DNA from: Arthrobacter sp. AQ5-05
GTDB taxonomy: Bacteria > Actinomycetota > Actinomycetes > Actinomycetales > Micrococcaceae
Assembly (NCBI RefSeq): GCF_003287975.1
Contig: NZ_QMKQ01000015.1
Span: 1-64,000, forward strand
Direction of reading: 5' to 3'
DNA length: 64,000 nt
Both the position numbers and the translations under genes were made by a program. Positions 34,627 through 60,349 of this stretch are shown here, one piece after another. The notes under the pieces were generated by a model. That model was not told the origin of the DNA. It saw only the letters and a list, made by a program, of their open reading frames with translations, and ran no database searches. Numbering within the stretch: the stretch's first letter is position 1; each line of letters begins with the position of its first letter.

Positions 34627-34711
34627 GGTTGTATTCCTTCATCCAGGCGGTGCCGCGCCTCCTTCCCTGGCGGGCAGGGGGAAACGCGGCACCGTCATGC
34701 GGTGATTGGTG

Positions 34712-35590
34712 CTAGGAGCGGGCGGGTTCGGACTTGTGGCTCTTGGGAACCACAATCATCGGGACCGGCAGGGTCCGCAGCATGCGTTGGGCAGTGGTGC
34801 CCAGGAAGAGCCGGCGCTTGCGCGCCAGGCGGCTCGAGCCGACGACGGCGACCTCGCCGTCCTCCCAGTCGAGTTCGGCGATGGCATCGTCGATGCCGGC
34901 GCCGGAGGCCACGATGATCTCCGCGGTGACGCCCAGATCCTGAACGACCGCGGCGGCGGTGGCCCGGGCGCGTTCGATGGAGTCTTCCGCTTCCGGAGAC
35001 CCGGCCGTGGCACGGTCCTGGGCCACCAGGGACACCACGCGCAGCGCCAGTTTCTGGTTGCTTGCGGCGGTTGCGGCCGCCTGCACGACGGCGCGGGCAC
35101 CGGGTCGGGTGCCGACGAACGCGGTGATCCGGCTGAGCTTGCCCCCGGCCCGTTCCAGGGACGCGACGGCGCCTGGGGTGCTCATGGCCACCGGGAACGG
35201 CGATGCGTGCAGCAGCGAGCTGGCCACCGAGCCCGGGACAAAGAACCCTGCCACGTGGCGCTTGCGCCCGCCGAGCACGATGACCTGGGCACCGGTTTCC
35301 TTGGCCATGGCGATCAATCCGGCTGCCGGGGAGGCGACCGCGCGGGCGATGACCCGGGCGGTGGGGCCGGCCGGAACCAGCTTGAGCGCTTCCTTGGCCC
35401 AGGCGTCGACCTGGTCCGCCAGGATGGAGGAGTAGCCGTGGTCGCTGCCCGGGTAGGTGGCCGAGAACGGGGTGTCCTCGGGCAGGACAATGGCGATGTC
35501 CAGGTGGGCCGTGGGCCCGCCCAACGCCGCGGCGAGCGCGATGGCCTCCGCGCCGCGGGCGTCGGCTGTGTATCCGATCAAGTAGCGCAT
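34712..35590 (-). CDS. Tandem-domain universal stress protein
   Basis: 292 residues made of two Usp domains (about 1-145 and 150-285). Each ends with the nucleotide-binding loop pattern: GGRKRHVAGFFVPGSVASSLL and GSSRLARKRRLFLGTTAQRML. TVPV-type endings, SPFPVAMS and LPVPMIVVP, follow. The ATG lies 5 bases after the amine oxidase stop and it is followed by the APC permease, so it belongs to the putrescine operon. Actinobacterial amine operons often carry such a protein, but its role there is unclear. Confidence 0.9.
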   Translation of the reverse strand: MRYLIGYTADARGAEAIALAAALGGPTAHLDIAIVLPEDTPFSATYPGSDHGYSSILADQVDAWAKEALKLVPAGPTARVIARAVASPAAGLIAMAKETGAQVIVLGGRKRHVAGFFVPGSVASSLLHASPFPVAMSTPGAVASLERAGGKLSRITAFVGTRPGARAVVQAAATAASNQKLALRVVSLVAQDRATAGSPEAEDSIERARATAAAVVQDLGVTAEIIVASGAGIDDAIAELDWEDGEVAVVGSSRLARKRRLFLGTTAQRMLRTLPVPMIVVPKSHKSEPARS

Positions 35591-35595
35591 GGAAC

Positions 35596-37020
35596 CTAGG
35601 CGTCCAGCGAGGTCAGGGTGCCGAACTTGGAGATGACCCCGTCGTACCCCAGGTCGTCGTCGGTGCCGTCCACGGCGGCGACGATGCGGGCGGCGGTGCG
35701 CCGTCCCATGCGCACGGCGCCGTCCACGTGCTGGTAGCCCTCGCCGGCCAGGTCCGAGGAGGAGAAGTAGATCGGGCCGACGTTCTTGTTTTGGTCGGGC
35801 CCGAAGCGGAACAGCCCACCCAGGTCGTAGCTGGTGGCGTAGGCGCCGCGGGTCCATTCCTCGGAACCGAAGTCGGAGAGGTAGAAGACCTTCGCATCCA
35901 GGGCCTTGGGGCCCAGGTACGTGGCCATGTCCTTGAGGATGGTTTCCTTGCGCTCGGCCTCGGAAAGCTCAAACATCGCGTCGGCCTGCAAATCGGAGAT
36001 GAAGCCGACCAGGGTGCCGGTGGTTTCCCCGTGGTAGGTGTTGTCGTAGATTTCCTGCACGATCGAGGACGGGCCGAAGCAGGTGCCCGAGAGGCCCTCT
36101 TCGCGCCAGAACGGGGTCTCGTAGACGGCGTGGACCTTGATGACCAGGCCCATGGACTGGTGCTGGTGGGTCACGTGCTGGCGGCGCGGCAGCGGCGGGT
36201 TGTAGGAGATCCGCGAGTACAGGTTCGGCGGAACGGCAACGATGACCTTCTTGGCGTTGACGGTGACGTCCGTGCCGTGGGCGGTCACGCCCTCGTCGGA
36301 CCAGTCGAGCTTGAGCACCGGGTTGTTCAGGTATACGTCCTCGCCCAGTCGCTGCGCCACGGCGATCGAGACGCCCTGCATGGTGCCGACCATGCGTCGG
36401 TCCAGGATGAAGTCCTCGTCCACGAGGTTGGAGAACGAGCCGGCGGAGGAGGACATCAAGAGGGCCTGCAGCGCGGAGAAGGTGTGGGCGGGCTTGGTGA
36501 GCATGCCGCCGGCGATGAACAGGCCGACGTTGTTGCAGGCCAGCTCGTCGTCGGAGAGGGTGCGCAGCCAGTGGTGGAAGGAGACCATGTCCAGTTCGGC
36601 TGCCTGCGGGTGCTCCCACGGGGCGTCCGGGTCGACCTGGGCGGTGAGGCGGTCCATCTCGGCGATGAGCTTGTTCATTTCGGCGACCGTGGATTCGGCC
36701 ACCGGGAAGTCCTCGCCGGTGTAGACGGTGCGGGTGCCGTCGGCCGCCATGTAGACCGAGGCGCCTTCCTTGTAGCGCTCGAAGGTCTCGATGCCCAGTT
36801 CCTCGATCAGCGAGTACAGGCCGGTCTGGTCCGGGGAGATCCACTGGCCGCCGATCTCGATGGTGGCCCCGTCCATGTCCTGGCTCCAGGTGCGGCCGCC
36901 GACGCGGTCGCGGGCCTCGAGCACAGCGACGGTCTTTCCCGCCTTGCGCAGCTCGTAGGCGGCGGTCAGGCCCGAGGGGCCGGCTCCGATGATGACGACG
37001 TCGCGATCCAGGGTTGTCAT
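35596..37020 (-). CDS. puo: Flavin monoamine oxidase, putrescine oxidase-like
   Basis: 474 residues. The FAD-binding N-terminus DVVIIGAGPSGLTAAYELRKAG is followed by EARDRVGGRTW and EIGGQWISPDQTGLYSLIEELG. The C-terminal FAD signature is DLAGEGYQHVDGAVRMGRRTAARI. The overall sequence is close to putrescine oxidases of Rhodococcus and Kocuria, which turn putrescine into 4-aminobutanal and H2O2. The ATG at 37020 is preferred (GGAAGAAG upstream); GTG 37029 is the alternative. It is divergent from a TetR gene and heads the operon with USP and permease. Confidence 0.92.
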   Translation of the reverse strand: MTTLDRDVVIIGAGPSGLTAAYELRKAGKTVAVLEARDRVGGRTWSQDMDGATIEIGGQWISPDQTGLYSLIEELGIETFERYKEGASVYMAADGTRTVYTGEDFPVAESTVAEMNKLIAEMDRLTAQVDPDAPWEHPQAAELDMVSFHHWLRTLSDDELACNNVGLFIAGGMLTKPAHTFSALQALLMSSSAGSFSNLVDEDFILDRRMVGTMQGVSIAVAQRLGEDVYLNNPVLKLDWSDEGVTAHGTDVTVNAKKVIVAVPPNLYSRISYNPPLPRRQHVTHQHQSMGLVIKVHAVYETPFWREEGLSGTCFGPSSIVQEIYDNTYHGETTGTLVGFISDLQADAMFELSEAERKETILKDMATYLGPKALDAKVFYLSDFGSEEWTRGAYATSYDLGGLFRFGPDQNKNVGPIYFSSSDLAGEGYQHVDGAVRMGRRTAARIVAAVDGTDDDLGYDGVISKFGTLTSLDA

Positions 37021-37044
37021 GGTGTCCACTTCTTCCGATGTTCT

Positions 37045-37063
37045 AAATGAATGACGTTCATTT
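37045..37063. promoter_or_regulatory. Candidate TetR operator of the putrescine operon
   Basis: AAATGAA-TGACG-TTCATTT, a perfect 7-bp-arm inverted repeat 25 bases upstream of the amine oxidase start and 68 bases from the divergent TetR start. This fits autorepression and control of the operon. Confidence 0.6.
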
Positions 37064-37130
37064 ACTAGACTGGTTCCATGTTAGGCCATGTTGTGCAGTA
37101 TTGTGAAGTGGGCCACGTCAGGAGCGGAAC

Positions 37131-37805
37131 TTGAACCACGAACCAGCATCTTCCACGGCCGCGCCGCGCCGCCGCGCCGGGCGCCCGAGGTCGGTGGTGC
37201 TGGACCGGGAGCTCATTGCCCGGGCGGCGCTGAAGCTCGTGGCGGCGGGCGGATACTCCACCCTGACCATGTCGGCACTGGCCAAATCCCTGTCGGTCTC
37301 GCCCTCGGCGCTGTACAACCACGTGGAGTCCAAGCAGGAGATCATGCAGTGGATCCAGGAAATCGTGATGGACGGGGTCGACTCGACGGTGTTCGAGACC
37401 CTGCCGCTGGATGAGGCACTGATGGCCTGGGCGGTGACCTACCGCGACATCTTCGCGGGGCACGCACCGCTGATTCCGCTGATCGCGGTGCTGCCGGTCT
37501 CGGGGTCCCCGCGCACGCTGGAGATGTATGAGAAGGTTGCGGCCGGGTTCACCCGCGCCGGTTGGAAGCAGGAAGACATCATCCCTGCCATCGTGGCCCT
37601 CGAGTCGTTCATCTTCGGCTCGGCCCTCGATGCCACCGCCCCGCTGGACATCTTCGACCCGGGCGAGAACACGGGAAACATCCCGAACTTCGAGGGCGCG
37701 CTGGAGGCGCAGCGGGCCACGGGCCGGCACAGCGCCGACGCCGCGTTCCACGCCGGGCTGCGCGCCATCGTCAACGGCCTGCTGGCAACATCCCGGACCA
37801 CATAG
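37131..37805 (+). CDS. TetR-family regulator of the putrescine operon
   Basis: 224 residues. The HTH is ELIARAALKLVAAGGYSTLTMSALAKSLSVSPSALYNHVESKQEIM, preceded by a basic arm (RRRAGRPR). The C-terminal helical domain (TGNIPNFEGALEAQ) resembles the TetR_C family found beside amine and amino acid genes. The start is TTG with AGGAG 7-10 bases upstream. TATTGT near 37110 is a possible -10. It faces the amine oxidase. Confidence 0.88.
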   Translation: MNHEPASSTAAPRRRAGRPRSVVLDRELIARAALKLVAAGGYSTLTMSALAKSLSVSPSALYNHVESKQEIMQWIQEIVMDGVDSTVFETLPLDEALMAWAVTYRDIFAGHAPLIPLIAVLPVSGSPRTLEMYEKVAAGFTRAGWKQEDIIPAIVALESFIFGSALDATAPLDIFDPGENTGNIPNFEGALEAQRATGRHSADAAFHAGLRAIVNGLLATSRTT

Positions 37806-39643: not shown

Positions 39644-39832
39644 TCAGTCGTCGACGATGGCCCAGCTGCCCGCGGGCTTGAATTCGCTGTCGTAGATGTC
39701 TTCGCCGGCGCCCGGATCCATGGGGTAGTTCTTGAGGTTCCCGGCCCAGTAGCGCAGCGCACGGGAGATCTCCGCCTCGGGGTCCAGCTTCATCGCCTCG
39801 GTGCCCATGTCGACTTCGAAAATGAATCTCAT
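39644..39832 (-). CDS. Small acidic hypothetical protein
   Basis: 62 residues (MRFIFEVDMGTEAMKLDPEA..., ending AGSWAIVDD). The ATG has AAGGGGAG 7 bases upstream, and codon use fits the region, so it is probably real. It is not recognised beyond a conserved-looking actinobacterial small protein. It lies 67 bases upstream of the DUF456 gene on the same strand. Confidence 0.7.
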   Translation of the reverse strand: MRFIFEVDMGTEAMKLDPEAEISRALRYWAGNLKNYPMDPGAGEDIYDSEFKPAGSWAIVDD

Positions 39833-39973
39833 CTGTCCGCTCCCCTTGGATCGGTGCGATGCCCGTTTGGCGGCACCACTGCCTGTGTTTTCCCATCCTA
39901 GGCGCCACCTCGGCGAATGCACCACGACAAATCGCGGGGATGAAAGGTGGCGGCAAGGGAAACCAGCAACGAA

Positions 39974-39990
39974 AGATTGTTGAACAATCT
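39974..39990. promoter_or_regulatory. GntR-type operator before pxpA
   Basis: AGATTGTT-G-AACAATCT, a perfect palindrome with 8-bp arms, 51 bases upstream of pxpA. The core TTGTTGAACAA (39977-39987) recurs at 58195 before the NRAMP-like gene. FCD-type GntR regulators commonly bind sites of this shape. Confidence 0.65.
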
Positions 39991-40041
39991 TCGTTCATAG
40001 TGCATCCTTAAGGGAACCACAACACGAGACGGGGGTCACAA

Positions 40042-40800
40042 ATGCCTTACATCGACCTGAATTCCGACGTCGGGGAGTCCTTCGGCAGCTGGGTGATGGG
40101 CGACGACGCCGCCATATTCACCTCCGTATCCTCGGCGAACGTTGCCTGCGGATTCCACGCCGGGGAACCCAGCGTCATCGCCCAGACCTGCCGCGACGCC
40201 GTCGCCGCCGGGGTCACCATCGGCGCCCACGTGGGCTACCGGGACCTGGCCGGCTTTGGCCGCCGCTTCCTGGATTGCTCCCCCATGGAGCTGGCCGACG
40301 ACGTGCTCTACCAGCTTGGCGCCCTCGAGGCCCTGGCCCGCGCGTCCGGCTCGTCCATCAAGTACGTCAAGCCGCACGGCGCGCTCTACAACACCATCGT
40401 GCACCACGAGGCCCACGCCCAGGCCGTCATCGACGCCATCCGCGCCTTCGGCTCGGACCTGCCGGTGCTGCTGCTTCCCGGCTCCGTCGCCTTGGCCAAG
40501 GCCGAGGCCGCGGGCCTGCGCCCGGTCGCCGAGGCCTTCGCCGACAGGAACTACACCCCCGCCGGCACCCTGGTCTCGCGCCGCGAGGCCAACGCGGTGC
40601 TGCACGACCCGGCAGCCGTCACCGCCAACATGATCCGCCTGGCCACCGAGAAGACCATTGTCGCCATCGACGGCTCGGTCATCCCCATGGACGCCGAAAG
40701 CATCTGCGTGCACGGTGACACCGCCGGGGCCGTAGCCATGGCCGCGGCCGTGCGCGCGGGCCTGGAATCCGCCGGCGTCACCATCAAGAGCTTCGTATGA
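40042..40800 (+). CDS. pxpA: 5-oxoprolinase subunit A (LamB/YcsF family)
   Basis: 252 residues. [24 protein letters not shown] and [14 protein letters not shown] are the diagnostic LamB/YcsF motifs with acidic and His residues at the active site. Together with PxpB and PxpC it hydrolyses 5-oxoproline to glutamate with ATP. GGGGGT precedes the ATG. It heads an operon whose genes overlap by ATGA. An FCD-type GntR operator candidate sits in its promoter. Confidence 0.95.
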
Positions 40801-42416
40801 GCGTGATCGCCACCCGCTTCGCCGGAACCCGGTCGGTGCTCGTGGAGCTCTCCGACCTCGACTCGGTGCTGGCCCTGGACGCACTGCTGGGGGCCAGCCC
40901 CCTGCCCGGGCAACTCGATGTGCTGGCCGCGGCAAGCACCGTGTTCATCAAGGCCGATTCCTGGGCCAACGCACAGAAGATCGCCGGCACCGTGCGCACC
41001 CTGGAGCTCGGGTCCGCCCCGGCCGACGCGGGCACCGAGGTGGAAGTACCCGTGCACTACGACGGGGAAGACCTCGCCGAGGTCGCGGAAAAGACCGGAC
41101 TGAGCCTCGAGGGCGTCATCAACGCCCACTCGCGGCAGCTGTGGCGGGCTGCCTTCGGCGGCTTCGCACCGGGCTTCGCCTACCTGCTGGGCGAGGACCA
41201 GGTCCTGAACGTTCCGCGTCGCTCCACCCCGCGCAAGGTCGTGCCCTCCGGCGCCGTGGCACTGGCCGGGGACTACTCGGCCGTGTACCCGCGCGCCTCC
41301 CCCGGCGGCTGGCAGCTGATCGGGCACACCGATGCAGTGCTCTGGGACCTGGACCGGAAGAACCCTGCACTGATCCGCCCGCAGGACCGGGTGCGCTTTG
41401 TTCCCACGCGCACCGCCATGCAGGTGGCCGCCACGCCCCGGGCGCACAGCGCACCGGTGACCGGCGGCAACCTGCTCGAAATCCTGGACCCCGGGCTGCA
41501 ATCCCTGATCCAGGATCTGGGTCGCCCGGGCTACGGCGAGCTGGGGGTGTCGGCGGCGGGCGCCGCGGACACCGCCTCCGCCGCGCAGGCCAACCGGCTC
41601 GTGGGCAACCGCGCCACCGAGGCCGTCATCGAAAACCTGCTCGGGGCCATGAGCCTGCGCGCCCACGGGGACGCGGTCATCGCGGTGTCCGGAGCCACCG
41701 CCACCATCCGGGTGGACCCGGTGGACGGGGACGACTTCCACGGTGAGCGCGAGATCCCGATGGACACCCCCTTCGCGCTGCTTGACGGCGAGGTGTTGAC
41801 CCTGGAACCCGGTGGCAACGGGCTGCGCAGCTACCTGGCGGTGCGCGGCGGAATCGACGTCGCGCCGGTGCTCGGCTCGCGCTCCACCGACTCGATGTCA
41901 GGCATCGGCCCGGCGCCGCTCACGGCGGGCACCCGGCTGCCGGTCGGCGCGATCCACGGGGCCCACGTGGTGGGCAATCCCGAGCCTTCCCCGCTGCCGG
42001 TTCCCGACGCCCAGGGCATCTACACGCTGCGCATCAGCGCCGGCCCCCGCGGGGACTGGTTCGGTGAAGCGGGTCTGGAACGGCTCACCGGGCAGGCTTG
42101 GAAGGTCTCGGCCGAATCCAACCGTGTCGGTGTCCGCCTGGCCCTGGGCCAGGACGCCGAACCGCTGCAACGCATCCGCGAGGGCGAACTGGCCTCCGAG
42201 GGCGTCGCCGTAGGCGCGCTGCAGGTCCCGCCCTCCGGCCTGCCGGTGCTCTTCCTGGCAGACCACCCGGTCACCGGCGGCTACCCGGTCATCGCCGGGG
42301 TCATCGCCGAGGATCTGCCCGCCGCGGCCCAGCTGCCTCCCGGGGCCACCATCCGTTTTGAATATGTCGCTCCCACCCAGTCCGGCACTTCCACCGACGA
42401 AGGAACCCACGCATGA
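40797..42416 (+). CDS. pxpBC: Fused 5-oxoprolinase subunits B and C
   Basis: 539-residue fusion. Residues 1-205 are the KipI/PxpB (allophanate hydrolase subunit 1) domain with [20 protein letters not shown]. Residues from about 222 are the KipA/PxpC (subunit 2) domain, opening [20 protein letters not shown] and including [20 protein letters not shown]. The same two domains form the carboxyltransferase of urea carboxylase. It overlaps pxpA and the biotin carboxylase gene by 4 bases each. Confidence 0.94.
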
Positions 42417-44155
42417 AAAAAGTATTGATCGCCAACCGCGGGGAAATCGCCGTCCGCATCGCCCGCGCCTGTGCCGACGCGTCCCTGGTTTCCGTGGCCG
42501 TCTACTCCGACCCCGATGCCGACGCGCTGCATGTGCGCCGCAGCGATGAGGCCTACGCCCTGAACGGGGCGGCCAGCTCCGATACCTACCTGGACATCGA
42601 CAAGATCCTGGACATCGCCGCCCGCTCGGGCGCCGACGCGGTCCACCCGGGCTACGGCTTCCTGGCAGAGAACGCCGACTTCGCCCAGGCCGTCATGGAA
42701 GCCGGGCTGACCTGGATCGGCCCGGATCCCGACGCCATCCGCGCACTGGGCAACAAGGTCACCGCCCGCGAAATCGCCGTGCGTGCCGGCGCGCCCCTGG
42801 TCCCGGGCACCGATGGACCGGTGGAATCGGGCGCCGAGGTCCGCGCCTTCGCCGAGGAGTTCGGGCTGCCTGTGGCCATCAAGGCGGCCTTCGGCGGCGG
42901 CGGACGCGGCATCAAGGTCGTGCGGACCCTCGAGGAAATCGACGACGCCTTCGAATCCGCCGTGCGCGAGGCGACCGTGGCCTTCGGCCGCGGCGAATGC
43001 TACGTGGAGCGCTTCCTGGATCGGCCGCGCCACGTCGAGGCCCAGGTCCTGGCCGACACGCACGGCAACGTCGTGGTGGTCGGCACCCGCGACTGCTCGC
43101 TGCAGCGCCGCAACCAGAAGCTCGTCGAAGAGGCCCCCGCCCCGTTCCTGACCGATGCGCAGCGTGCCTCCATCCATTCCTCGGCCAAGGCGATCTGCCG
43201 CGAGGCCGGCTACCAGGGCGCCGGAACCGTCGAATACCTGGTCGCCCCGGACGGCCTGATCTCCTTCCTGGAGGTCAACACGCGCCTGCAGGTCGAGCAC
43301 CCGATCACCGAGGAAACCACCGGTGTGGACCTGGTGGCCGAGCAGTTCCGCATCGCCGACGGGCAGGCGCTCTCGATCACGCAGGACCCGACCCCCACTG
43401 GCCACTCCTTCGAGTTCCGCATCAACGCCGAGGACCCGGCCCGTGGCTTCCTGCCGGGCCCCGGACGCATCACCGCCTTCGAAGCGCCCACCGGATCGGG
43501 CATCCGCGTTGATTCGGGCGTGCGCACCGGTTCGGTGATCCCCCCGCACTACGACTCGTTGATGGCCAAACTGATCGTCACCGGCGCCACCCGCGCCCAG
43601 GCGCTGCGCCGGGCCAAGGTCGCCCTGGATGAGATGGTCATCGCCGGGGTTCCCTCGGTGCTGCCCTTCCACCGTGCGGTGGTGCGCAACGCCGACTTCG
43701 CCAACAACAAGCGCTACGGGGTCTACACCACCTGGATCGAGTCCGAGTTCGCGGCCGAGCTGGCCTCCAGCCCCGAGATCGCCGCGGCCGAGCCGGGCTC
43801 GGCGCGCGAGACCCTCACCATCGAGGTGGACGGCAAGGCCATGAACATCGGCCTTCCGGCCTCGCTCGTGGACTCGATCCGCCACGGCGGCACCGGTGCG
43901 GCCTTCGACGCGGCAGCCCAGAACATCGCGTCCGCGGCCGACGAATCGACACTGGCCGCCCCGATGAACGGAAACCTGGTCAAGTGGGTCGCCGAGGATG
44001 GCGCCGCAGTGGCCGAGGGCGACACCGTTGCCGTGCTTGAGGCCATGAAGATGGAATCAAACATCACCGCCCACCGTGCCGGCACCTTCGGCCGCGGAAC
44101 CCAGGAACCGGGGACCGCGATCGCCCGCGGCGAAGCACTCGGGAGCATCGCTTAA
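42413..44155 (+). CDS. Biotin carboxylase with C-terminal biotin carrier domain
   Basis: 580 residues. The biotin carboxylase N-domain [19 protein letters not shown] is followed by the ATP-grasp glycine loop [13 protein letters not shown], then [18 protein letters not shown], and the C-terminal BCCP with the biotinylated Lys in [11 protein letters not shown]. This looks like an acyl-CoA carboxylase alpha chain. But it is the third gene of the pxp operon (ATGA overlap), so its carboxyl acceptor is probably offered by PxpBC, not an acyl-CoA. 5-oxoproline as acceptor is an inference. Confidence 0.92.
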
Positions 44156-44196
44156 CGCTTGCGGTTTCCGCGGACAGGTTCGATTAGATTGAAAGG

Positions 44197-44883
44197 ATGC
44201 CAGTGAACGCCTTGTTATCGTCCCTGCCCCTGGCCGAGGGGTCAACCCACGCGCACACCGGTGCGTGGGTTGCCGCGGTGTTGCGTTCGCGGATCGCCGA
44301 GGGCCAGCTGCTGCCCGGCACCAAGCTTTCCGAGCAGGCGCTCTCGGCCGCCATGGGGGTCTCGCGCAACACGCTGCGCGAGGCCTTCGCCGTGCTTGAC
44401 CACGAGCTGGTCATCACCCGCATCCCCAACCGCGGCGTTTTTGTTTCCTCCCCCGGGCCCGAGGGAGTGCGGGAGATCTATGCGGTGCGCCGGATGATCG
44501 AGCCCGCCGCGGTGCTGTGGGGACCCGACCTGGACGTCGCGGCCCTTGAATCCATCATCGTTGACGCGCGCGCCGCGCTGAAGGCCGGGGACATCGCCAA
44601 GATGGCCGATGCCAACCAGTGCTTCCACGAGGAACTGGTCCGGGCCACCGGCAGCGTGCACCTGCAGGAACTGATGACCAAGGTGCTGGCGCGGATGCGC
44701 CTGGTCTTCCATGCCATGGGGGACGCCCCCGACTTCCACTCGCACTACGTGGAATTGAACGCCACGCTGGTGGACCTGCTGCAGTCCGGCAAGCGCGAGC
44801 AGGCCTCGGAGGAAATGCGCGGGTACCTGGATCGCGCCGAGGCCGAGCTGCTGGCCCACATCGCGGCCGACGAGGAACACTAG
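44197..44883 (+). CDS. GntR-family (FCD domain) regulator
   Basis: 228 residues. The winged HTH (VLRSRIAEGQLLPGTKLSEQALSAAMGVSRNTLREAFAVL) is followed by an FCD ligand domain with VREIYAVRRMIEPAAV and a metal-site His pattern. It sits 41 bases after the pxp operon and most likely binds TTGTTGAACAA sites at pxpA and at 58.2 kb. TAGATT (44185-44190) ends 6 bases before ATG 44197, so it probably has its own leaderless transcript; GTG 44203 is the alternative start. Confidence 0.9.
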   Translation: MPVNALLSSLPLAEGSTHAHTGAWVAAVLRSRIAEGQLLPGTKLSEQALSAAMGVSRNTLREAFAVLDHELVITRIPNRGVFVSSPGPEGVREIYAVRRMIEPAAVLWGPDLDVAALESIIVDARAALKAGDIAKMADANQCFHEELVRATGSVHLQELMTKVLARMRLVFHAMGDAPDFHSHYVELNATLVDLLQSGKREQASEEMRGYLDRAEAELLAHIAADEEH

Positions 44884-44907
44884 GCTCCCACGCGCGACAC
44901 CGCCACG

Positions 44908-45672
44908 TTACATGCCCATGGTGATCTTGGCGTCCTTGCGCAGCACCGCGACGTAGTCCTTGACCGCTGCGGCCTCTTTCTGGAGCTTGAGCTGCTGTTC
45001 GAGCTCGGACTTCATTGTCTTGTAGCTTGGCGCCTTTGGCGCGTCCTTGTCGGTGGTCGCCTGCTTCTTGAACTGGTCGAGCACCACCTGGTATGCGGCC
45101 TTGGTTTCCTTTTCGGAGGGCCGGAAGTCGCCCACCTCCTTGGCGATCAACCGCTCGACCTCGAGCTGGGTCTTCAGTTGCGCGCGTACGGCGTCCTGGT
45201 TCAGTCCCTGGGCGTCCATGGCCGCCAGGAATTCCTTGGTATCCATGTCGTTGGACTTGGCAACGTCCCCCAGTGCCGCGTCCAGGTCCTTGGAGGTGGC
45301 AAAGACCTTCTTCTTCGCCGCCTGCTGGATCAGCAATTCGGTGTTCACCAGGCCCTCCGCCGTCTGCTTGCGCAGTTGGCCTTGGTCGAGTTCCTCGCCT
45401 GAGAGCTGCGCCTGCTGCAGGACCTGGGCGAACTGGCCCTCATAGATCCGGGTGAAGTCGGCCTTGGTGATTTCCTCGCCGTTGACGGTGGCGATGATCT
45501 CGGGGACCCCGGCGAGGTCCGGGGTCGGGCTTGCGGCATCGGACGGTGCAGCCTCGACGGCCGCGCTGCTGGAGGCGGGGGCCGCTTCCGGTTCCGCCGT
45601 GGCACTGCACCCGGTCATGAACGACAACGAGGCGACAAGGGCCATGGAAAGAACCCACTTCTTCTGCAACAT
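44908..45672 (-). CDS. SurA-N-like lipoprotein, parvulin-type chaperone candidate
   Basis: 254 residues. The lipoprotein signal ends in the lipobox SFMTGC. A Ser/Ala/Pro linker follows, then IIATVNGEEITKADFTRIYE and a helical SurA N-terminal domain (GLVNTELLIQQAAKKK, LNQDAVRAQLKTQLEVERLI). No full PPIase domain is visible, so it is a chaperone-like trafficking factor by inference. GGGAG precedes the ATG. It lies 117 bases after the ABC ATPase gene and may be separate from it. Confidence 0.82.
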   Translation of the reverse strand: MLQKKWVLSMALVASLSFMTGCSATAEPEAAPASSSAAVEAAPSDAASPTPDLAGVPEIIATVNGEEITKADFTRIYEGQFAQVLQQAQLSGEELDQGQLRKQTAEGLVNTELLIQQAAKKKVFATSKDLDAALGDVAKSNDMDTKEFLAAMDAQGLNQDAVRAQLKTQLEVERLIAKEVGDFRPSEKETKAAYQVVLDQFKKQATTDKDAPKAPSYKTMKSELEQQLKLQKEAAAVKDYVAVLRKDAKITMGM

Positions 45673-45789: not shown

Positions 45790-46599
45790 CTAGATCACGT
45801 TTTCCAGGAAAGCGCGGGTTCGTTCGTGGCTGGGGTTGCCCAGCACCGCGGCCGGTGAACCGGATTCCACCACGACGCCGCCGTCCATGAACACCACCTC
45901 GTCGGCCACGTTGCGCGCGAACCCGATCTCGTGGGTCACCACGATCATGGTCATGCCGCTGGCGGCGAGCTTCTGCATCACGTCCAGCACATCTCCCACC
46001 AGTTCCGGGTCCAGTGCGCTGGTCGGCTCGTCAAAGAGCATCAGCTTCGGTTCCATGGCCAGCGCCCGGGCAATGGCCACGCGTTGCTGTTGGCCGCCGG
46101 AGAGCTTGGCCGGGTGCAGGGCGGCCTTGTCTCCCAGCCCGACCTGTTCCAGCAGCTCGTGGGCCTGGGCAATGGCTTGCGCCTTGGGGATCCTCTTGAT
46201 GCCGATGGGTGCGGCGATGATGTTTTCCAGCGCGGTGAGGTGCGGGAAGAGGTTGAAGCGCTGGAACACCATCCCGATGCCCCGGCGTTGCCGTGCGACC
46301 TCGCGCGGCTTCATCTCGTGGAGCTTGCCATTGCGCTGGGCGTAGCCGATGAGTTCGCCGTCGAAGTTGATCCTCCCGCCGTCGATGCGTTCAAGGTGGT
46401 TGATGCAGCGCAGGAAGGTGGATTTGCCCGACCCCGAGGGCCCGAGCAGGCACATGACCTGCCCGGCATCGACCTGCACGTCGATGCCCTTGAGCACCTG
46501 GAGCTGGCCGTAGCTCTTGCGCACCCCCCGGGCCTGGACCAGCGGCAGGCGGTGCTCGTCGGTGCGGACCGGGGACGGGGATTCAAGGATCGAGTTCAT
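45790..46599 (-). CDS. Polar amino acid ABC transporter ATP-binding protein
   Basis: 269 residues. The Walker A is GPSGSGKST, the Q-loop VFQRFNLFPHLTALENI, the signature LSGGQQQRVAIARAL, the Walker B LMLFDEPTSALDPE, and the H-loop VVTHEIGFARN. This is the GlnQ/HisP-type PAAT family. The ATG overlaps the permease stop (ATGA). It is the last gene of a lysA-linked operon. Confidence 0.95.
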   Translation of the reverse strand: MNSILESPSPVRTDEHRLPLVQARGVRKSYGQLQVLKGIDVQVDAGQVMCLLGPSGSGKSTFLRCINHLERIDGGRINFDGELIGYAQRNGKLHEMKPREVARQRRGIGMVFQRFNLFPHLTALENIIAAPIGIKRIPKAQAIAQAHELLEQVGLGDKAALHPAKLSGGQQQRVAIARALAMEPKLMLFDEPTSALDPELVGDVLDVMQKLAASGMTMIVVTHEIGFARNVADEVVFMDGGVVVESGSPAAVLGNPSHERTRAFLENVI

Positions 46600-47549
46600 T
46601 TTCTGTTGCCTTCCTGGCTGCGACGTACGCGATGGACAAGGGCCACGGCCCGGCCGATGGGTGTGGGTCCCAGGGTGCGGGACCCCCGGCCGTAGTGGCG
46701 TTCGAGGTGGTACTGCGGCACCGACAGGATGGAGGTCAGCGCCAGGTACCAGATGCTCACCACGATCAGCAGCTCGACCTGGTGAAGGTTCTGCGAGGAG
46801 ATGCGGGCGGCCACCGTGTAGAGCTCGGCCACGGCGATCAGTGAGAGCAGCGCGGTGTCCTTGAGCATGGAAATCGTCTCGTTGCCCATGGGCGGGATGA
46901 TGACGCGCATGGCCTGCGGCAGCTCCACCTTGAACAAGGTGAACAGCGGGGTCATGCCCAGCGAATAGCAGGCCTCCTTCTGCCCTTGGTCGACCGAGAG
47001 CATGCCGGCGCGCACGATCTCCGCGGTGTAGGCCCCCTGATTGGTGGTCAGGGCGATCACGCCGGCCACGAAGGCCGGGATCAGCGCGTTGGTGTCGACG
47101 GTGAAGACCGTGAAGTCGGTGAACGGAACCCCCAGTGACAGCTGCTTGTAGAGCAGGCCCAGGTAGCCCCAGAACACGATCTGCACCAGCAGCGGGGTGC
47201 CGCGGAAGATCCAGATGTACAGCCAGGCGACGGAGTTCAGCACCGGATTTTCGGAGAGCCGCATCAGCGCCAGCACGATCCCCAGGATCGTGGACAGCAC
47301 CATGGTGATGATTGTCAGCGCCACGGTGAGCACCGCGCCGGCCACGATCCGGTCGCTGAAGAGGTACCTGGCGATCGTGGGGTGGTCGATGTTGGGGTTC
47401 TGCCACAGCGAGGTTCCAACCCCGAGCAGGGCCAGCAGGATCAGGGATGCCAGCACCCAGCGACCTGGGTGGCGCAGCGGGACGGCCACGATGTCGTGGG
47501 CACCGGGTTCCACCGCCACGGGGGCCGGCGGTGCGGGTTGCCGGTGCAC
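46596..47549 (-). CDS. Polar amino acid ABC transporter permease
   Basis: About 317 residues with five to six transmembrane helices. IFRGTPLLVQIVFWG and the EAA loop GQKEACYSLGMTPLFTLFKVELPQA are diagnostic of HisMQ-type permeases. GTG 47549 has GGGAAG 7 bases upstream and starts 4 bases after the binding-protein stop. ATG 47567, overlapping that gene by 14 bases, is the alternative. Basic tail. Confidence 0.93.
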   Translation of the reverse strand: MHRQPAPPAPVAVEPGAHDIVAVPLRHPGRWVLASLILLALLGVGTSLWQNPNIDHPTIARYLFSDRIVAGAVLTVALTIITMVLSTILGIVLALMRLSENPVLNSVAWLYIWIFRGTPLLVQIVFWGYLGLLYKQLSLGVPFTDFTVFTVDTNALIPAFVAGVIALTTNQGAYTAEIVRAGMLSVDQGQKEACYSLGMTPLFTLFKVELPQAMRVIIPPMGNETISMLKDTALLSLIAVAELYTVAARISSQNLHQVELLIVVSIWYLALTSILSVPQYHLERHYGRGSRTLGPTPIGRAVALVHRVRRSQEGNRK

Positions 47550-47553
47550 GGTG

Positions 47554-48495
47554 CTACTTCCCGCCATTGTTCACACCGGCCTCGGTCACGGCGAAGTCGG
47601 ACAGGTCGTACTTCTCCATGAGCTGGGTGTAGGTGCCATCCTCGACGAGCGACTGCAGCGCCAGGCGCAGCGCCTCGGTGAGGTCCTTGTTTTCCTTCAG
47701 CAGGCCGATGCCGGTGTAGACCGGATTGTAGCCGTTGGGGAACCCGGGGTCCTTGACCAGTTCGAAGAGCTTGCCGTCTCCCGCTGTGGCCGCGGCATAG
47801 GTGGCCACCGAGGCGTCCACGACGTCGGCAACGGCCTTGCCCGAGCGCACCGCGGTTTGGGCATCAAGCTCGCTGGGCAGTTGCACCAGCTCGATCGGGG
47901 ACTTGCCGGCCTCCTGGCACTTGGCGGCGAAAGCGGCCAGGTACTCGCCCTGCACCGTCGCCTTCTGGACGGCAACCGGCTTGCCGCACAAATCGATGAT
48001 GGATCCGATCCCCTCGGGGTTCCCCGCGTTGACCAGGATCTTGAACCCGGCATGGAAGTAGTCCACGAAGTTCAACACCTTCTGGCGTTCGGCGGTGTCG
48101 TTCATCCCGGCGAAGATGATGTCGTTCTTTCCCGCCTGCAGCGACGGGATCGAGGAGTCGAAGGCCTGCTGCTGGAAATTGAACTTCACCCCCAGCTTCC
48201 CGCCCATGGCCTGGGAGAGGTCGTAGTCAAGGCCGGTGGGGTTGTTGTTCTCATCCAGCATTTCCATGGGCGGGTTGGGGATGTCGGCGGCCACGTTGAT
48301 GGCCCCTGCGTCCTTGTACCTTGCCGGCAGGGCAGCCGCGGCGGCGGCGTCGACCTCGACGCCCACCTGGGGTGCCGGGGTTCCCGCGGTGACCGGCTCA
48401 TCGACGGAGCAGCCGGTCAGGGCCAGTCCAATGGCCAGGGTGGCGGCCGAAAGGGTGATCAGCCCGGGACGGTTCTGGTGCGATGTGGTGTTCAT
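47554..48495 (-). CDS. Amino acid ABC transporter substrate-binding lipoprotein
   Basis: 313 residues. The lipobox is LALTGC near residue 29. The SBP_bac_3 fold shows NPPMEMLDENNNPTGLDYDL, DIIFAGMNDTAERQKVLNFVDY and KPVAVQKATVQGEYLAAF, and a C-terminal ENKDLTEALRLALQSLVEDG. The substrate is not clear from motifs. It lies directly downstream of lysA, so lysine or diaminopimelate is a context-based guess. Confidence 0.93.
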   Translation of the reverse strand: MNTTSHQNRPGLITLSAATLAIGLALTGCSVDEPVTAGTPAPQVGVEVDAAAAAALPARYKDAGAINVAADIPNPPMEMLDENNNPTGLDYDLSQAMGGKLGVKFNFQQQAFDSSIPSLQAGKNDIIFAGMNDTAERQKVLNFVDYFHAGFKILVNAGNPEGIGSIIDLCGKPVAVQKATVQGEYLAAFAAKCQEAGKSPIELVQLPSELDAQTAVRSGKAVADVVDASVATYAAATAGDGKLFELVKDPGFPNGYNPVYTGIGLLKENKDLTEALRLALQSLVEDGTYTQLMEKYDLSDFAVTEAGVNNGGK

Positions 48496-48555
48496 GGCGG
48501 TGCGGTTTCCTTTGGGAGTGGGAGGCAATCGGGAATGCAGGGGGGTGCGGCCTGG

Positions 48556-49860
48556 TTACCAGCGGCGCAGCAGGGCAGGCTGTTGGGTGCGCAGCAGGTC
48601 CTCGTAGGTTTCCCGGGCGACAGCGAGCGTGGAGGACCCGTCGGCGCAGAAGATCACCGGCGGCTTGCACGCCCCGTTGTAGTTGTTGGCCAGGGTGTAG
48701 GCGTAGGCACCGGTGGCCGGCATGGCCACCAGGTCCCCGACCTGCGGGTCGGCCAGCAGCGCGCCCGCGGACATGAGGTCGCCCGATTCGCATTGCCGCC
48801 CCACCACGTCGGCGATGACGGTGGGTTCGGCCCCGATCTTGGTGGCCATCAGGGCCTCGTAGCGCTGTCCGGTCAGGGCGATGTCGATGTTGTCCGCCAT
48901 GCCGCCATCGATGGCGACGAAGGTCTTGCCAGTGGTCTTGACCGTGTTGACCGAGTACAGCGTGATGCCGGCGCGGGCCACGAGCGAGCGGCCCGGCTCG
49001 ATGATGAGCTTCGCTTCGGCCGGGAGCAGCCGGTCGGCGGCCTCGGCCAGGGTGTCCAGGTAGGCCTCGACGCTCGGGGCGATCTCGTCGTAGGTGTATT
49101 TCACGCCCAACCCCCCACCCACGTCGTAGGTGTCGAAGGTGCCGAACTCGGCAACGGATTTCACGGCCTGCGCGAACGGCTCGGTTTCCAGCACCTGGGA
49201 GCCGATGTGGACGTGGATGCCCTCGAAGTGCAGCAGCGGGTGCTTGGCGATGCGTGCGATGGCGCGGGTGATGTCCGCGGGGGGAAGCCCGAACTTCGAG
49301 TCGTTGCCGCCGGTGACCTGCGAGGCGTGGGTGGCCGGGGTGATGCCCGGGATCATGCGAAGCAGGACACGCTGTTCCTTGGTGGCCATGGCCTCGAGGC
49401 GGTCCAGGTCGTCGAAGTTGTCCACGATGATCGCCCGGATTCCCGCAGCCAGCGCCATCTGGATTTCCGCATCGGACTTGGCGTTGCCGTGCAGGTAGAT
49501 GTTCGAGGGGCAGACCCCGGCGGTCAGCGCCATCATGAGTTCCCCGCCGCCGGCCACGTCGACGCTGAGGCCTTCGGCCTGGGCGATGGCGTACATGGCA
49601 ACGCACGGCAGGGACTTGGAGGCGAAAAGCACCTCGGAGTTCGGGCGCCGGGAGCCCAGGCCCTGGACGAAGCGGCGGATCTGCCGGCGCAGCCCGGTCT
49701 CGTCCATGATGTAGGCCGGGGTTCCGTACTGGCGGGCCAGTTCGCTGACCGATACCCCGCCAATGGACAGTTCCCCGGTGTCGGAGACCGTTGATTCTTC
49801 CGGGAGGATGTCCATCAACAAGTTGATGTCCGGGTGCTGCAGCTGCTGGGTCACTGTCAT
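48556..49860 (-). CDS. lysA: Diaminopimelate decarboxylase
   Basis: 434-residue PLP fold-III enzyme that makes lysine from meso-DAP. EVLFASKSLPC holds the PLP Lys. HVHIGSQ, YDVGGGLGVKY, IEPGRSLVARAG and the C-terminal CESGDLMS contribute the PLP phosphate and substrate sites. It is the first gene of an operon with an amino acid ABC transporter and is divergent from a PucR regulator. In actinobacteria the usual lysA sits with argS and thrA-type genes, so this may be a second, catabolic copy. Confidence 0.9.
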   Translation of the reverse strand: MTVTQQLQHPDINLLMDILPEESTVSDTGELSIGGVSVSELARQYGTPAYIMDETGLRRQIRRFVQGLGSRRPNSEVLFASKSLPCVAMYAIAQAEGLSVDVAGGGELMMALTAGVCPSNIYLHGNAKSDAEIQMALAAGIRAIIVDNFDDLDRLEAMATKEQRVLLRMIPGITPATHASQVTGGNDSKFGLPPADITRAIARIAKHPLLHFEGIHVHIGSQVLETEPFAQAVKSVAEFGTFDTYDVGGGLGVKYTYDEIAPSVEAYLDTLAEAADRLLPAEAKLIIEPGRSLVARAGITLYSVNTVKTTGKTFVAIDGGMADNIDIALTGQRYEALMATKIGAEPTVIADVVGRQCESGDLMSAGALLADPQVGDLVAMPATGAYAYTLANNYNGACKPPVIFCADGSSTLAVARETYEDLLRTQQPALLRRW

Positions 49861-55929: not shown

Positions 55930-55943
55930 ATTCAGGCCAAGAA

Positions 55944-56000
55944 CCCCGAGCAAGGCCATGCCCGCCCTGTTGAACAGGGCGGGCATGGCTTTGCTCGGGG
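55944..56000. terminator. Strong bidirectional hairpin terminator
   Basis: 26-bp arms (55944-55969 and 55975-56000), nearly perfect, around loop TTGAA, followed by TGTGTATTTG on the plus strand. It separates the deaminase gene from the converging DUF1445 gene. Confidence 0.8.
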
Positions 56001-56023
56001 TGTGTATTTGCGCCGCTTGCTTG

Positions 56024-56839
56024 CTACGGCACCAGGTAGTTGCTGTCGCGGGCGTCGGTGATGAGCATGTGCCCGGGCGCATGTCCGATGGCCAGCGCGG
56101 GCTTGGACTCCATGACGGCCGCCTGCGGGGTGACCCCGCAGGCCCAGAACACCGGGATGTGCCCGGCCGGGATCTGGACCGGATCCCCGAAGTCCGGCTT
56201 GGACAGGTCCGTGATGCCCAGTTCCTCCGGGTTGCCGATGTGCACCGGGGCCCCGTGCACCGCGGGGTAGCGGGAGGTGATGCGCACCGCGTCGGACACC
56301 TGGGAGGCGGGGATCGGGCGCATGGATACCACCATGGGCCCGGACATCGACCCGGCCGAGGCGCTGCGGATGTTCGACTTGAACATCGGAACGTTCACTC
56401 CCTGGTCGATGTGCGCGATCCTGATCCCGCCCTCCATCAATGCGGTCTCGAAGGTGAACGAGCAGCCCACGATGAAGGTGACCAGGTCATCGCGCCAGTA
56501 CCCGGACAGGTCGGTTGGCTCTGCGACCTTCACGCCGTTTTCGTAGACGACGTACTTCGGCACGTCGGTGCGGATGTCCCCGCCGGCCAGCAGTTCCCCG
56601 CTGGTCTCCCCCGCGTCCAGCACGCCCAGGATCGGGCAGGACTTGGGGTTGCGCTGGGCGAAGAGCAACACGTCGAAGGCCTGGTCCCTGGGCACGATGA
56701 TCAGGTTCGCCTGGGCGTAGCCGAGGGAGAAACCGGCGGTCGGCACGGCCAATCCGTTGCGGAACAGTTCACGTGCCTGGGCCGGGGACAGGTCTGCGCG
56801 TTCCCCGGCTCCGGGTGTTGGCGAATTGGCGGGTGTCAT
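56024..56839 (-). CDS. DUF1445 putative hydro-lyase (YcsI-like, D-glutamate cyclase relative)
   Basis: 271 residues. LSPAQARELFRNGLAVPTAGFSLGYAQANLIIVP, CSFTFETALMEGGI, SMRPI and the Cys-containing FWACGVTPQAAV are the family motifs. Homologues include bacterial YcsI and the domain related to D-glutamate cyclase, an enzyme that makes 5-oxo-D-proline into glutamate. Directly downstream of the NRAMP-like gene, forming a two-gene operon. In Bacillus subtilis ycsI lies in the ycsF-kipI operon, so the link is 5-oxoproline metabolism. Confidence 0.88.
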   Translation of the reverse strand: MTPANSPTPGAGERADLSPAQARELFRNGLAVPTAGFSLGYAQANLIIVPRDQAFDVLLFAQRNPKSCPILGVLDAGETSGELLAGGDIRTDVPKYVVYENGVKVAEPTDLSGYWRDDLVTFIVGCSFTFETALMEGGIRIAHIDQGVNVPMFKSNIRSASAGSMSGPMVVSMRPIPASQVSDAVRITSRYPAVHGAPVHIGNPEELGITDLSKPDFGDPVQIPAGHIPVFWACGVTPQAAVMESKPALAIGHAPGHMLITDARDSNYLVP

Positions 56840-56908
56840 GGTGGCTGGCGTCCTTTCGACAGGGTGTTTCAGCTTGCGGGGATGTTGGTGGGCGTTCGGG
56901 CTTCGGGG

Positions 56909-58126
56909 CTAGACCCAGAGCTTGGAGAGGCCCGCCAGGGAGTTCCAGCCGAGGAAGAGGGTCAGCAGCCAGGTGGCGACGCCGATAATCAGCAGCCACT
57001 TGGGGTAGACGTAGCCCTGCAGCAGGTCGCGGCGGCGCCAGGCGGCCCAGAGCAGGACCGCGAAGCCGACCGGCAGGATCAGTCCGTTGAAGGCGCCGGC
57101 GAAGATCAGCAGCGTCTGCGGGGCCTGGCCCAGGAAGAGGTAGATGACCGCACACACCGCGATGAACGCGACGGTGATCAGATTGCGGGTGCGCTCGGGG
57201 GTGGTGGACTTGGTGACGAAGGAAACCGAGGTGTAGGCGGCACCGATGACGGATGTCAGGGCGGCGGCCCAGAGGATCACGCCGAAGGAGCGCATCCCGA
57301 TATCTCCCGCAGCGTGGCCGAAGGCCTCGGCGGCCTTGTTGTCGCTGGTCAGCACGACTCCCCCGGCGACAACGCCGAGGATGGCCAGGAACAGCAGCAC
57401 GCGCATGATGCCGGTGACGATGATGCTCAGGATGGAGGTGCGGGTGATGTCCTTGACGTTCTCGACACCGGCCGCGCCCGAGTCGAGCATGCGGTGGGCG
57501 CCGGCGTAGGTGATGTAGCCGCCGACGGTGCCGCCGATCAGCGTGGTGATGATCAGGAAGCTGATGTTCTCCGGCAGGACCGCGTTCTTCAGCGCCTCGC
57601 CCACCGGGGGTGCGGCGACGATGGCCACGTACAGCATCAACAGGATCATGATCGCGCCGAGCATCACCACGATCTTGTCCAGGGCCATGCCGGCGCGCTT
57701 GGAGAGGAAGATCAGGATCGCCACGACGGCGGAAAGGATGCCGCCGATCTTGGGGTCGAGCCCCATCATGGCATTCATGCCCAGGCCGGTGCCGGCGATG
57801 TTGCCGATGTTGAAGACCATGCCGCCGATGAAGACCAGCGCGGCCAGGACCCATCCGATGCCGGGGAGCACCTTGTTGCCAAGTTCCTGGGCGCGGAGAC
57901 CCGAGACGCCGATGATGCGCCACACGTTCAGCTGGACGGCGATGTCCACCAGGATGGAAACGACGATCGCGAAGGCGAAGGAGGCGCCGATCTGGACCGT
58001 GAATTCGGTGGTCTGGGTGATGAAGCCGGGCCCGATGGCGCTGGTGGCCATGAGGAACATGGCGCCAAGCATTGCTGTGCGCCTGGCAGAAGTACTGAGC
58101 TTCGGTTTCGTGCTTGGAGTGGCCAT
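56909..58126 (-). CDS. NRAMP-related transporter (YcsG-like)
   Basis: 405 residues, 11 predicted helices. AIGPGFITQTTEFTVQIGASF in TM1 replaces the DPGN metal site of classic NRAMP (reads GPGFITQT), and TM6 (GGTVGGYITYAGAHRM) lacks the MPH motif. It is therefore unlikely to be an ordinary Mn/Fe importer. YcsG of Bacillus subtilis sits with 5-oxoproline genes, so an organic or amide substrate is plausible. It is preceded by two TTGTTNAACAA palindromes. Confidence 0.85.
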   Translation of the reverse strand: MATPSTKPKLSTSARRTAMLGAMFLMATSAIGPGFITQTTEFTVQIGASFAFAIVVSILVDIAVQLNVWRIIGVSGLRAQELGNKVLPGIGWVLAALVFIGGMVFNIGNIAGTGLGMNAMMGLDPKIGGILSAVVAILIFLSKRAGMALDKIVVMLGAIMILLMLYVAIVAAPPVGEALKNAVLPENISFLIITTLIGGTVGGYITYAGAHRMLDSGAAGVENVKDITRTSILSIIVTGIMRVLLFLAILGVVAGGVVLTSDNKAAEAFGHAAGDIGMRSFGVILWAAALTSVIGAAYTSVSFVTKSTTPERTRNLITVAFIAVCAVIYLFLGQAPQTLLIFAGAFNGLILPVGFAVLLWAAWRRRDLLQGYVYPKWLLIIGVATWLLTLFLGWNSLAGLSKLWV

Positions 58127-58194
58127 GATTCCATCCGTCGGGGGTGCGGGTGACAGCTGTCACAAGTGGGGAGCGATGAAAGGTACATTACAGG

Positions 58195-58229
58195 TTGTTG
58201 AACAATCATGGCAATAGGTTGTTCAACAA
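58195..58229. promoter_or_regulatory. Two GntR-type operators before the NRAMP-like gene
   Basis: TTGTTGAACAA (58195-58205) and TTGTTCAACAA (58219-58229), 24 bp centre to centre, in the promoter of the minus-strand operon. The first is identical to the core of the pxpA site at 39977. Reciprocal control by the pxp GntR protein is the simplest reading. Confidence 0.65.
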
Positions 58230-58300
58230 TTCATCCCGGGCACCCCCTCCCCCGACGCCGAAGGAAACCCGCGGATTGCACCCGAACCCGGACACGACAA

Positions 58301-58342
58301 GGCCCTTCCCCGCGCCGCGGTTCGCCGGCGCAGGGAAGGGCC
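58301..58342 (-). terminator. Terminator of the DUF1540 gene
   Basis: On the minus strand GGCCCTTCCC pairs with GGGAAGGGCC, with an inner GCGCCGGCG/CGCGGCGC stem, followed by TTGTCGTGTCC. Lies 14 bases after the stop. Confidence 0.7.
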
Positions 58343-58356
58343 CAAACAGTCGCGAC

Positions 58357-58882: not shown

Positions 58883-60349
<1,467 letters not shown>

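Follow-up and report, generated by a model that had tools for sequence, protein, structure and literature searches.

The operon described here lies on the forward strand of a 64,000-nucleotide stretch of Arthrobacter sp. AQ5-05 (contig NZ_QMKQ01000015.1, positions 1 to 64,000; hereafter the window), part of a high-GC genome of 4.65 Mb, and joins the genes of a PxpABC-type 5-oxoprolinase to a gene for a biotin carboxylase (BC) fused to a biotin carboxyl carrier protein (BCCP) domain. The first gene, pxpA (40042..40800, +), encodes a 252-residue hydrolase of the LamB/YcsF family, 5-oxoprolinase subunit A (PF03746, 5.4e-97), which is the sole PF03746 match in the whole genome; it scores above the cut-off of two NCBIfam PxpA subfamily models (352.9 against 226 and 260.1 against 213 bits) and below that of three NCBIfam PxpA equivalog models. 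The second, pxpBC (40797..42416, +), encodes a fused PxpB-PxpC of 539 residues, a carboxyltransferase (CT) of the urea carboxylase type in which CT_C_D (PF02682, residues 7-192) precedes CT_A_B (PF02626, residues 249-522), so that homologues of pxpA, pxpB and pxpC all lie within one operon. As PxpBC is the sole PF02626 match in the genome, only a single PxpABC set exists there. The third gene, encoding BC-BCCP (42413..44155, +; 580 residues), contains Biotin_carb_N, CPSase_L_D2, Biotin_carb_C and Biotin_lipoyl according to Pfam, and the alignment of pxp-linked BC-BCCPs places the biotin-accepting Lys546 in the motif EAMKMES (codon 44048..44050, +). Both junctions, pxpA/pxpBC and pxpBC/BC-BCCP, are ATGA overlaps. 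Coordinates, Pfam and junction sequence thus agree with the first-pass annotation, which had described pxpA, a fused pxpBC and a BC-BCCP with EAMKMES, all overlapping by ATGA. A GntR-FCD regulator gene (44197..44883, +; PF00392, PF07729), which may encode a PxpR-like 5-oxoproline sensor, begins 41 bases past the BC-BCCP stop, and regulators of the same type flank other BC-linked operons. No promoter-like site was found across 39700-45000.

The homology of PxpB and PxpC to the CT domains of urea carboxylase, also put forward in the first-pass annotation, is supported by Pfam, by the fold match and by the chains of PDB entry 9yx5. An AlphaFold2 model of PxpBC, built with an alignment (mean predicted local distance difference test score 93.8), matches TTHA0988 with Z 39.2, and its residues 216-535 match Kluyveromyces lactis urea amidolyase with Z 34.0; weaker matches are two uncharacterised proteins (Z 11-13), ArgR C-terminal domains (Z 7-11) and cupins (Z about 5). 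The protein has many invariant residues and passes the TIGR00724 domain model (238 against 230.2 bits), but it misses the NCBIfam equivalog cut-offs for PxpC_5OPro (171 against 500 bits) and PxpB (122.4 against 145.55). Neither PxpBC (150 bits) nor the BC (521 bits) reaches the 1303.85 bits of TIGR02712, the equivalog model of full-length urea carboxylase.

The BC-BCCP protein has the BC catalytic residues and the BCCP biotin lysine of a biotin-dependent carboxylase, and the adjacent PxpBC, a CT by domain and fold, is the candidate cognate carboxyltransferase. In the alignment columns of 125 pxp-linked BCs, from which the weak matches L186 and L223 were left out, twelve positions assigned to ATP, bicarbonate or biotin were tested, and each is conserved in at least 124 of them. 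Among the 95 linked BC-BCCPs with a complete C-terminus, the biotin lysine is kept in 94, with a gap in the other, and Arg338 in all 95; the position of His236, in contrast, varies (N 78, H 44, F 3). For these catalytic positions we assume the residue names of Escherichia coli BC.

The window BC-BCCP finds its best PDB match in AccA3. A BC tree of 65 rows was built, leaving out five sixths of the linked family BCs, the duplicates L138, L327 and L328, the long branches L003, L004, L330 and L244, the urea carboxylase rows and at most 16 near-duplicates. Of these rows, L327 and L328 are the pxp-linked BCs of Nocardioides and Corynebacterium. The linked BCs stand beside actinobacterial AccA3-like subunits and away from AccC, and a single clade of linked BCs from both phyla sampled, Actinomycetota and Pseudomonadota, is compatible with the data (approximately unbiased test, p 0.655; constrained tree 5.35 log units above the free search). 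The window BC falls outside the AccA3-like group and is 60% identical to the genome's own AccA3-like paralogue (C2:253659), and its contig contains no match to PF01039, the acyl-CoA CT family; on both counts the protein differs from an AccA3-type alpha subunit of acyl-CoA carboxylase. The BC most similar to the window BC is the linked one in 14 of 16 genomes.

Three collections of CT_A_B or PxpBC loci were used to follow the spread of the arrangement: a class sample drawn evenly, the window's family and a set of named loci; the second and third were selected by similarity or by going down a list by hand. In the class sample CT_A_B occurs in 81 of 148 genomes at 94 places, of which 20 were left out: 12 with BC and PxpC in one frame, as in urea carboxylase, and 8 with weak CT matches, one of them (L137) a pxp locus caught by the rule. 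This leaves 68 loci with split pxpB/pxpC and 6 fused ones; BC lies downstream in a single fused locus and in no split locus. Judged by this sample alone, the linked arrangement would seem rare (1/74 pxp loci), and its spread is visible in the samples chosen by similarity or by hand. In the window's family PxpBC was matched in 177 of 197 genomes, and 90 loci were taken (the top 30 and a further 60 selected by hand down the list), among which BC lies downstream in 70 of 87 fused loci, two of them with only a weak, probably broken BC, and in one of three split loci. The named set, the best 80 of 580 loci found by similarity to an alignment, has BC downstream in 54/73 fused loci (including L233, with a gap of 525 nt) and 1/7 split loci; by phylum, BC is present in 34/34 loci of Pseudomonadota and 21/46 of Actinomycetota.

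Of the 166 fused loci in the three sets together, 125 have BC-BCCP after pxpBC, as against 2 of 78 split ones, and the two split loci with BC (L163, L257) look like frame-broken fused genes. These are locus counts rather than genome counts, because some genomes fall in two samples; L219/L302 and L208/L255 are identical rows. The linked loci of Pseudomonadota include Pseudomonas, Variovorax, Comamonas, Photorhabdus, Gilliamella, Acinetobacter, Shinella, Rhizobium, Bartonella and Paracoccus. In an evenly drawn sample of 150 Pseudomonadota genomes, 45 match PxpBC. Not counting the centre genome, Variovorax G343, which was chosen for its operon, fused genes were met at five places, spread over four genomes, and BC was present at all four places examined. 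A BC gene would stand next to a random gene about once in 1,000 cases by our estimate (4 BC domains among roughly 4,000 genes), and since the same gene order is found in numerous genomes from two phyla, the operon arrangement is not a matter of chance. As a separate observation, the BC of a Cryobacterium metagenome-assembled genome (L249) groups inside the BCs of Pseudomonadota and its PxpBC next to theirs, which could reflect transfer of the complete unit or faulty binning.

In two loci of the window's family (L168, L173), a single open frame covers PxpB, PxpC, BC and BCCP, joined by a linker rich in Pro, Ala and Ser, an internal start being possible; for L168 the domains of the one-frame protein were confirmed by Pfam. 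Two further genomes (G218, G238) have open frames similarly long to the one-frame protein. BC also stays after pxpBC where pxpA is inverted (L205) and where pxpA was not found in the 9 kb examined (L202, L212), which ties BC to PxpBC itself. Twenty loci of Pseudomonadota, mostly split, were picked by hand. Of these, four (L368, L372, L373, L386) have an AccC-type BC and a separate BCCP gene nearby, with BC, BCCP and pxpA of L372 on the strand opposite to pxpB/pxpC; another (L379) has an AccC-type BC, with no BCCP detected by motif scan; one (L370) has the BC-BCCP type linked; and 14 have no BC within 14 kb. From the AccC-type BCs near split genes it seems that the coupling between BC and PxpB/C was built more than once from different BCs. 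The Variovorax genome G343 has three PxpB/C sets: one fused with BC-BCCP (L338), one split with an AccC-type BC and BCCP (L368) and one split without BC (L369).

The number of partners available within a genome is also informative. Photorhabdus, Gilliamella and Bartonella each have two BCs, one AccC-sized and one linked, two partial PF01039 matches fitting AccA/AccD and one PxpBC; the only carboxyltransferases in these three small genomes are those of acetyl-CoA carboxylase itself and PxpBC, and there is no spare acyl-CoA CT. In Cedecea there are three PF01039 matches and two CT_A_B. The window genome has four BC domains against two acyl-CoA CTs, one protein of pyruvate carboxylase size and one PxpBC, and another of its BCs (contig C21) lies directly beside an acyl-CoA carboxyltransferase. 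Recurrence, one-frame fusions, BCs compatible with one clade and the lack of any other free partner in the small genomes together tie BC-BCCP to PxpBC.

A dedicated biotin enzyme beside ring-opening genes suggests that the 5-oxoproline ring is tagged with CO2, as yeast handles urea, and not phosphorylated. The reading preferred here, to which we assign a probability of roughly 60%, is that BC-BCCP feeds carboxybiotin to PxpBC and so activates 5-oxoproline for PxpA, which would make the system a biotin-dependent 5-oxoprolinase resembling urea amidolyase. Enzymes of the BC family use ATP and bicarbonate to carboxylate biotin on BCCP, and here the biotin would be that of the protein's own BCCP domain. 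The carboxybiotin would then swing to PxpBC as the carboxyltransferase, which would move CO2 onto the lactam of 5-oxoproline, either at the nitrogen, as in the conversion of urea to allophanate, or at the lactim oxygen. The hydrolase PxpA would open the activated ring to give a carboxylated glutamate, which would lose CO2 to yield glutamate. The net reaction would be 5-oxoproline + ATP + 2 H2O -> glutamate + ADP + Pi; bicarbonate would act as a catalytic cofactor and so not show in the stoichiometry. In lineages without a linked BC, its place may be taken by a biotin subunit of housekeeping type (AccA3-like or AccB/AccC). The basis of this reading is gene order, domains, residues and phylogeny, from which we infer the carboxyl transfer, the ring opening and the loss of CO2. 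A precedent for bicarbonate-dependent opening of a lactam, in an unrelated family, is the caprolactamase CapAB, for which PMC8453981 describes lactam hydrolysis dependent on ATP and bicarbonate; CapAB differs in belonging to the hydantoinase/oxoprolinase family, and no biotin domain is described in the part of that paper drawn on here.

Several observations weigh against this reading. A linked BC is missing from 41 of the 166 fused loci (for L243, which is among these, the 49 bases available downstream are too few to tell) and from the surrounding stretch of all 68 split loci of the class sample, which implies that PxpABC either works without biotin or borrows a biotin subunit. The PxpBC tree kept only those class split loci whose number divides by four and those linked family loci whose number divides by five; 17 named rows were left out, as were rows that match PxpB or PxpC weakly. 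In this tree, linked and unlinked fused PxpBCs of Actinomycetota interleave, with 14 changes; in that phylum the linked BC can therefore be dispensed with or replaced, and an AccA3-like subunit could take over its role. Among the fused PxpBCs of Pseudomonadota sampled, none is unlinked. A tree-aware test for co-evolution of fusion and BC linkage had only four independent pairs and gave p = 1. The free BC tree needs two changes for the linked group, not one, so a single clade is allowed by the data, not shown, and in 2 of 16 genomes an AccA3-like subunit is closer to the window BC than the linked BC is.

The active site provides a further objection. Lys1605 of urea carboxylase is the likely general base according to PMC5770610, and its position is K in 11 of 12 actinomycete urea carboxylases, with a gap in the twelfth. 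The same position is Arg in all 70 PxpB sequences sampled (of 162 available), linked or not; in the window it is Arg141 in the PxpB part (codon 41217..41219, +; by alignment). This arginine is the strongest evidence at the residue level against a plain copy of urea carboxylase chemistry, and since it is common to unlinked PxpBCs as well, it provides no marker separating biotin users from others. That Arg141 could hold the carboxylate of 5-oxoproline is speculation. Of the first-pass proposal that the lactam may be carboxylated before ring opening, the tie between BC-BCCP and PxpBC stands and 5-oxoproline is supported as the substrate, while the carboxylation itself is the step that we infer and for which the urea carboxylase base is not conserved.

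The lack of this base in PxpB, the 68 split actinomycete loci without a linked BC and the relationship of the BC to AccA3, an acyl-CoA carboxylase subunit, would all fit a different explanation, in which PxpABC phosphorylates 5-oxoproline directly, and BC-BCCP either serves a separate acyl-CoA carboxylase, its gene being a passenger in the operon, or regulates the 5-oxoprolinase. PxpB and PxpC are "assumed" to phosphorylate 5-oxoproline in PMC13274462, and PMC8453981 states that they were co-purified and show ATP hydrolysis, both of which also count against a carboxylating enzyme. This alternative is nevertheless improbable, given that the adjacency recurs across two phyla and one-frame fusions exist, that the three small genomes have no spare acyl-CoA CT, that a second type of BC occurs near PxpB/C, and that Pfam finds no ATP-binding domain in PxpBC, the operon's only ATP-grasp being in the BC.

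The substrate is indicated by the neighbouring genes, counted within the sequence stretches examined round each locus. A relative of D-glutamate cyclase lies between pxpA and pxpBC in 14 of the 34 Pseudomonadota loci (PF07286 by Pfam for L246). Among the fused loci of the named set, a cyclase, an Nramp transporter and a GntR-FCD regulator accompany 24, 27 and 44 of the 54 with a linked BC, as against 2, 2 and 5 of the 19 without; among the split loci of the class sample, 11/68 have a cyclase. In Corynebacterium glutamicum, the Nramp-related PxpT, PxpABC and the GntR sensor PxpR serve growth on 5-oxo-L-proline, and PxpR binds 5-oxoproline with a dissociation constant of 726 nM, as stated in PMC13274462. 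The cyclase, Nramp and GntR-FCD neighbours thus support 5-oxoproline as the substrate. An unlikely alternative is that BC-BCCP does partner PxpBC and that the enzyme acts on another lactam or cyclic amide, or on 5-oxo-D-proline only, and not on 5-oxo-L-proline. The embedded gene belongs to a family whose name points to D-glutamate and which we take to be linked to 5-oxo-D-proline; PxpB and PxpC score below the equivalog cut-offs, and further PxpB/C sets occur in Variovorax G343 and Cedecea G353. By contrast, the Nramp and GntR-FCD partners match the 5-oxo-L-proline system studied by experiment in PMC13274462, and the window genome has only one PxpABC.

PxpABC is, according to PMC13274462, the 5-oxoprolinase type found in the majority of analysed prokaryote genomes. 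The window operon shares homologues of PxpA, PxpB and PxpC as well as Nramp and GntR partners with PxpABC of Bacillus subtilis and pxpTABC of C. glutamicum, and differs from them in its fused PxpBC and its BC-BCCP. With urea carboxylase and urea amidolyase (K. lactis, 3va7, 5i8i) it shares BC, BCCP and the same CT fold, and natural one-frame fusions exist in both; the domain order of the pxp fusions, however, is CT_C_D-CT_A_B-BC-BCCP as against BC-CT_A_B-CT_C_D-BCCP in urea carboxylase, and the window has Arg for Lys1605 and PxpA instead of allophanate hydrolase. Paired genes homologous to the two urea carboxylase CT halves, unassigned in function in 2011 (PMC3199775), are evidently homologues of PxpB/PxpC, and section 8 of that paper mentions no BC-BCCP partner. 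PMC12427679 reports for Lactiplantibacillus pentosus an extra BCCP and BC and, separately, pxpB/pxpC.

A close known system is PDB entry 9yx5 (released 2025-11-26), which according to its entry is the long chain acyl-CoA carboxylase complex of Mycobacterium smegmatis with MSMEG_0435-MSMEG_0436 bound. Here, homologues of PxpC/PxpB are bound to a complex containing AccA3, to which the window BC-BCCP is more closely related than to any other solved structure, the difference being that the biotin subunit is AccA3 and PxpB/PxpC are unlinked, whereas the window operon encodes a dedicated BC-BCCP. The BC of the operon may thus be a dedicated form of a subunit that other systems borrow. The same binding could instead point to PxpBC as a non-catalytic adaptor recruited to biotin complexes, with the linkage being structural or regulatory, but the invariant residues of PxpBC and the kept catalytic positions of BC point to catalysis and make such a role very improbable. 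The entry 9yx5 also shows that other groups are already close to this subject. No paper was found in a search of the open-access literature for the 9yx5 entry code, and among the open-access matches listed, a scope outside which most subscription papers and all preprints fall, none describes a biotin-dependent 5-oxoprolinase.

That canonical PxpABC works without biotin, as the first-pass annotation had held, is unproven, and 9yx5 has mycobacterial PxpB/PxpC on a complex with a biotin subunit. A broader proposal, which is tentative and less probable than not, is that PxpABC 5-oxoprolinases in general are biotin enzymes, obtaining carboxybiotin from a BC-BCCP or an AccB/AccC pair dedicated to them, or from the subunit of the housekeeping acetyl/acyl-CoA carboxylase, with bicarbonate as catalytic cofactor. 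If this were true, the assumed phosphorylation mechanism would be wrong, 5-oxoproline use and fatty acid synthesis would be competitors for carboxybiotin, and component A of Meister's Pseudomonas putida enzyme would be BC-BCCP plus PxpBC. How PxpABC spends ATP is only assumed, and a dedicated biotin carboxylase in two phyla makes the question directly testable. If the narrower reading of a biotin-dependent 5-oxoprolinase is right, lactams would join the substrates of biotin-dependent carboxylation, the likeness of 5-oxoprolinase subunits to urea carboxylase would be explained, and a function would be found for genes now perhaps annotated as additional subunits of acetyl-CoA carboxylase.

In six Pseudomonas loci the predicted masses are 60.5-61.9 kDa for BC-BCCP, 55.3-57.1 kDa for PxpBC and 26.5-27.2 kDa for PxpA (three PxpA about 80 kDa). 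Split PxpB and PxpC have masses of some 24 and 33 kDa. For the P. putida 5-oxoprolinase, PMC8453981 gives polypeptides of 64 and 51 kDa in component A and a component B of 82 kDa. The components fit BC-BCCP, PxpBC and three PxpA roughly, with sizes within about 10 to 12% and no link to genes in that account, and the sizes loosely favour BC-BCCP plus PxpBC over split PxpB plus PxpC.

Elsewhere in the window, a gene of the D-glutamate cyclase family (56024..56839, -; PF07286, 7.1e-66, the only PF07286 match in the genome) adjoins an Nramp-family gene (56909..58126, -; PF01566, 1.8e-24). The cyclase family protein is presumably YcsI-like, and the transporter is a candidate PxpT/YcsG-like 5-oxoproline importer, which matches the Nramp protein of the Pseudomonas pxp operon L246 with 457 bits (phmmer). 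Lying 12 kb from the operon at 56024-58126 (-), this pair is likely to be the rest of a 5-oxoproline module. In other organisms, accB/accC presumably lie beside pxpABC in Staphylococcus, the survey here covering Actinomycetota and Pseudomonadota. The Aspergillus nidulans genes lamA/lamB reportedly concern 2-pyrrolidinone, and the matches listed for them held nothing useful by title.

Around these genes, a nucleoside hydrolase, an adenosine deaminase and an inosine monophosphate dehydrogenase-type gene flank the cyclase/Nramp pair (53954-60349). Genes of an amino acid ATP-binding cassette transporter (SBP_bac_3, BPD_transp_1) and a pyridoxal phosphate-dependent decarboxylase of the ornithine/diaminopimelate family lie at 45790-49860 (-), and genes for an amino acid permease, a flavin amine oxidase and a TetR regulator at 33103-37805.

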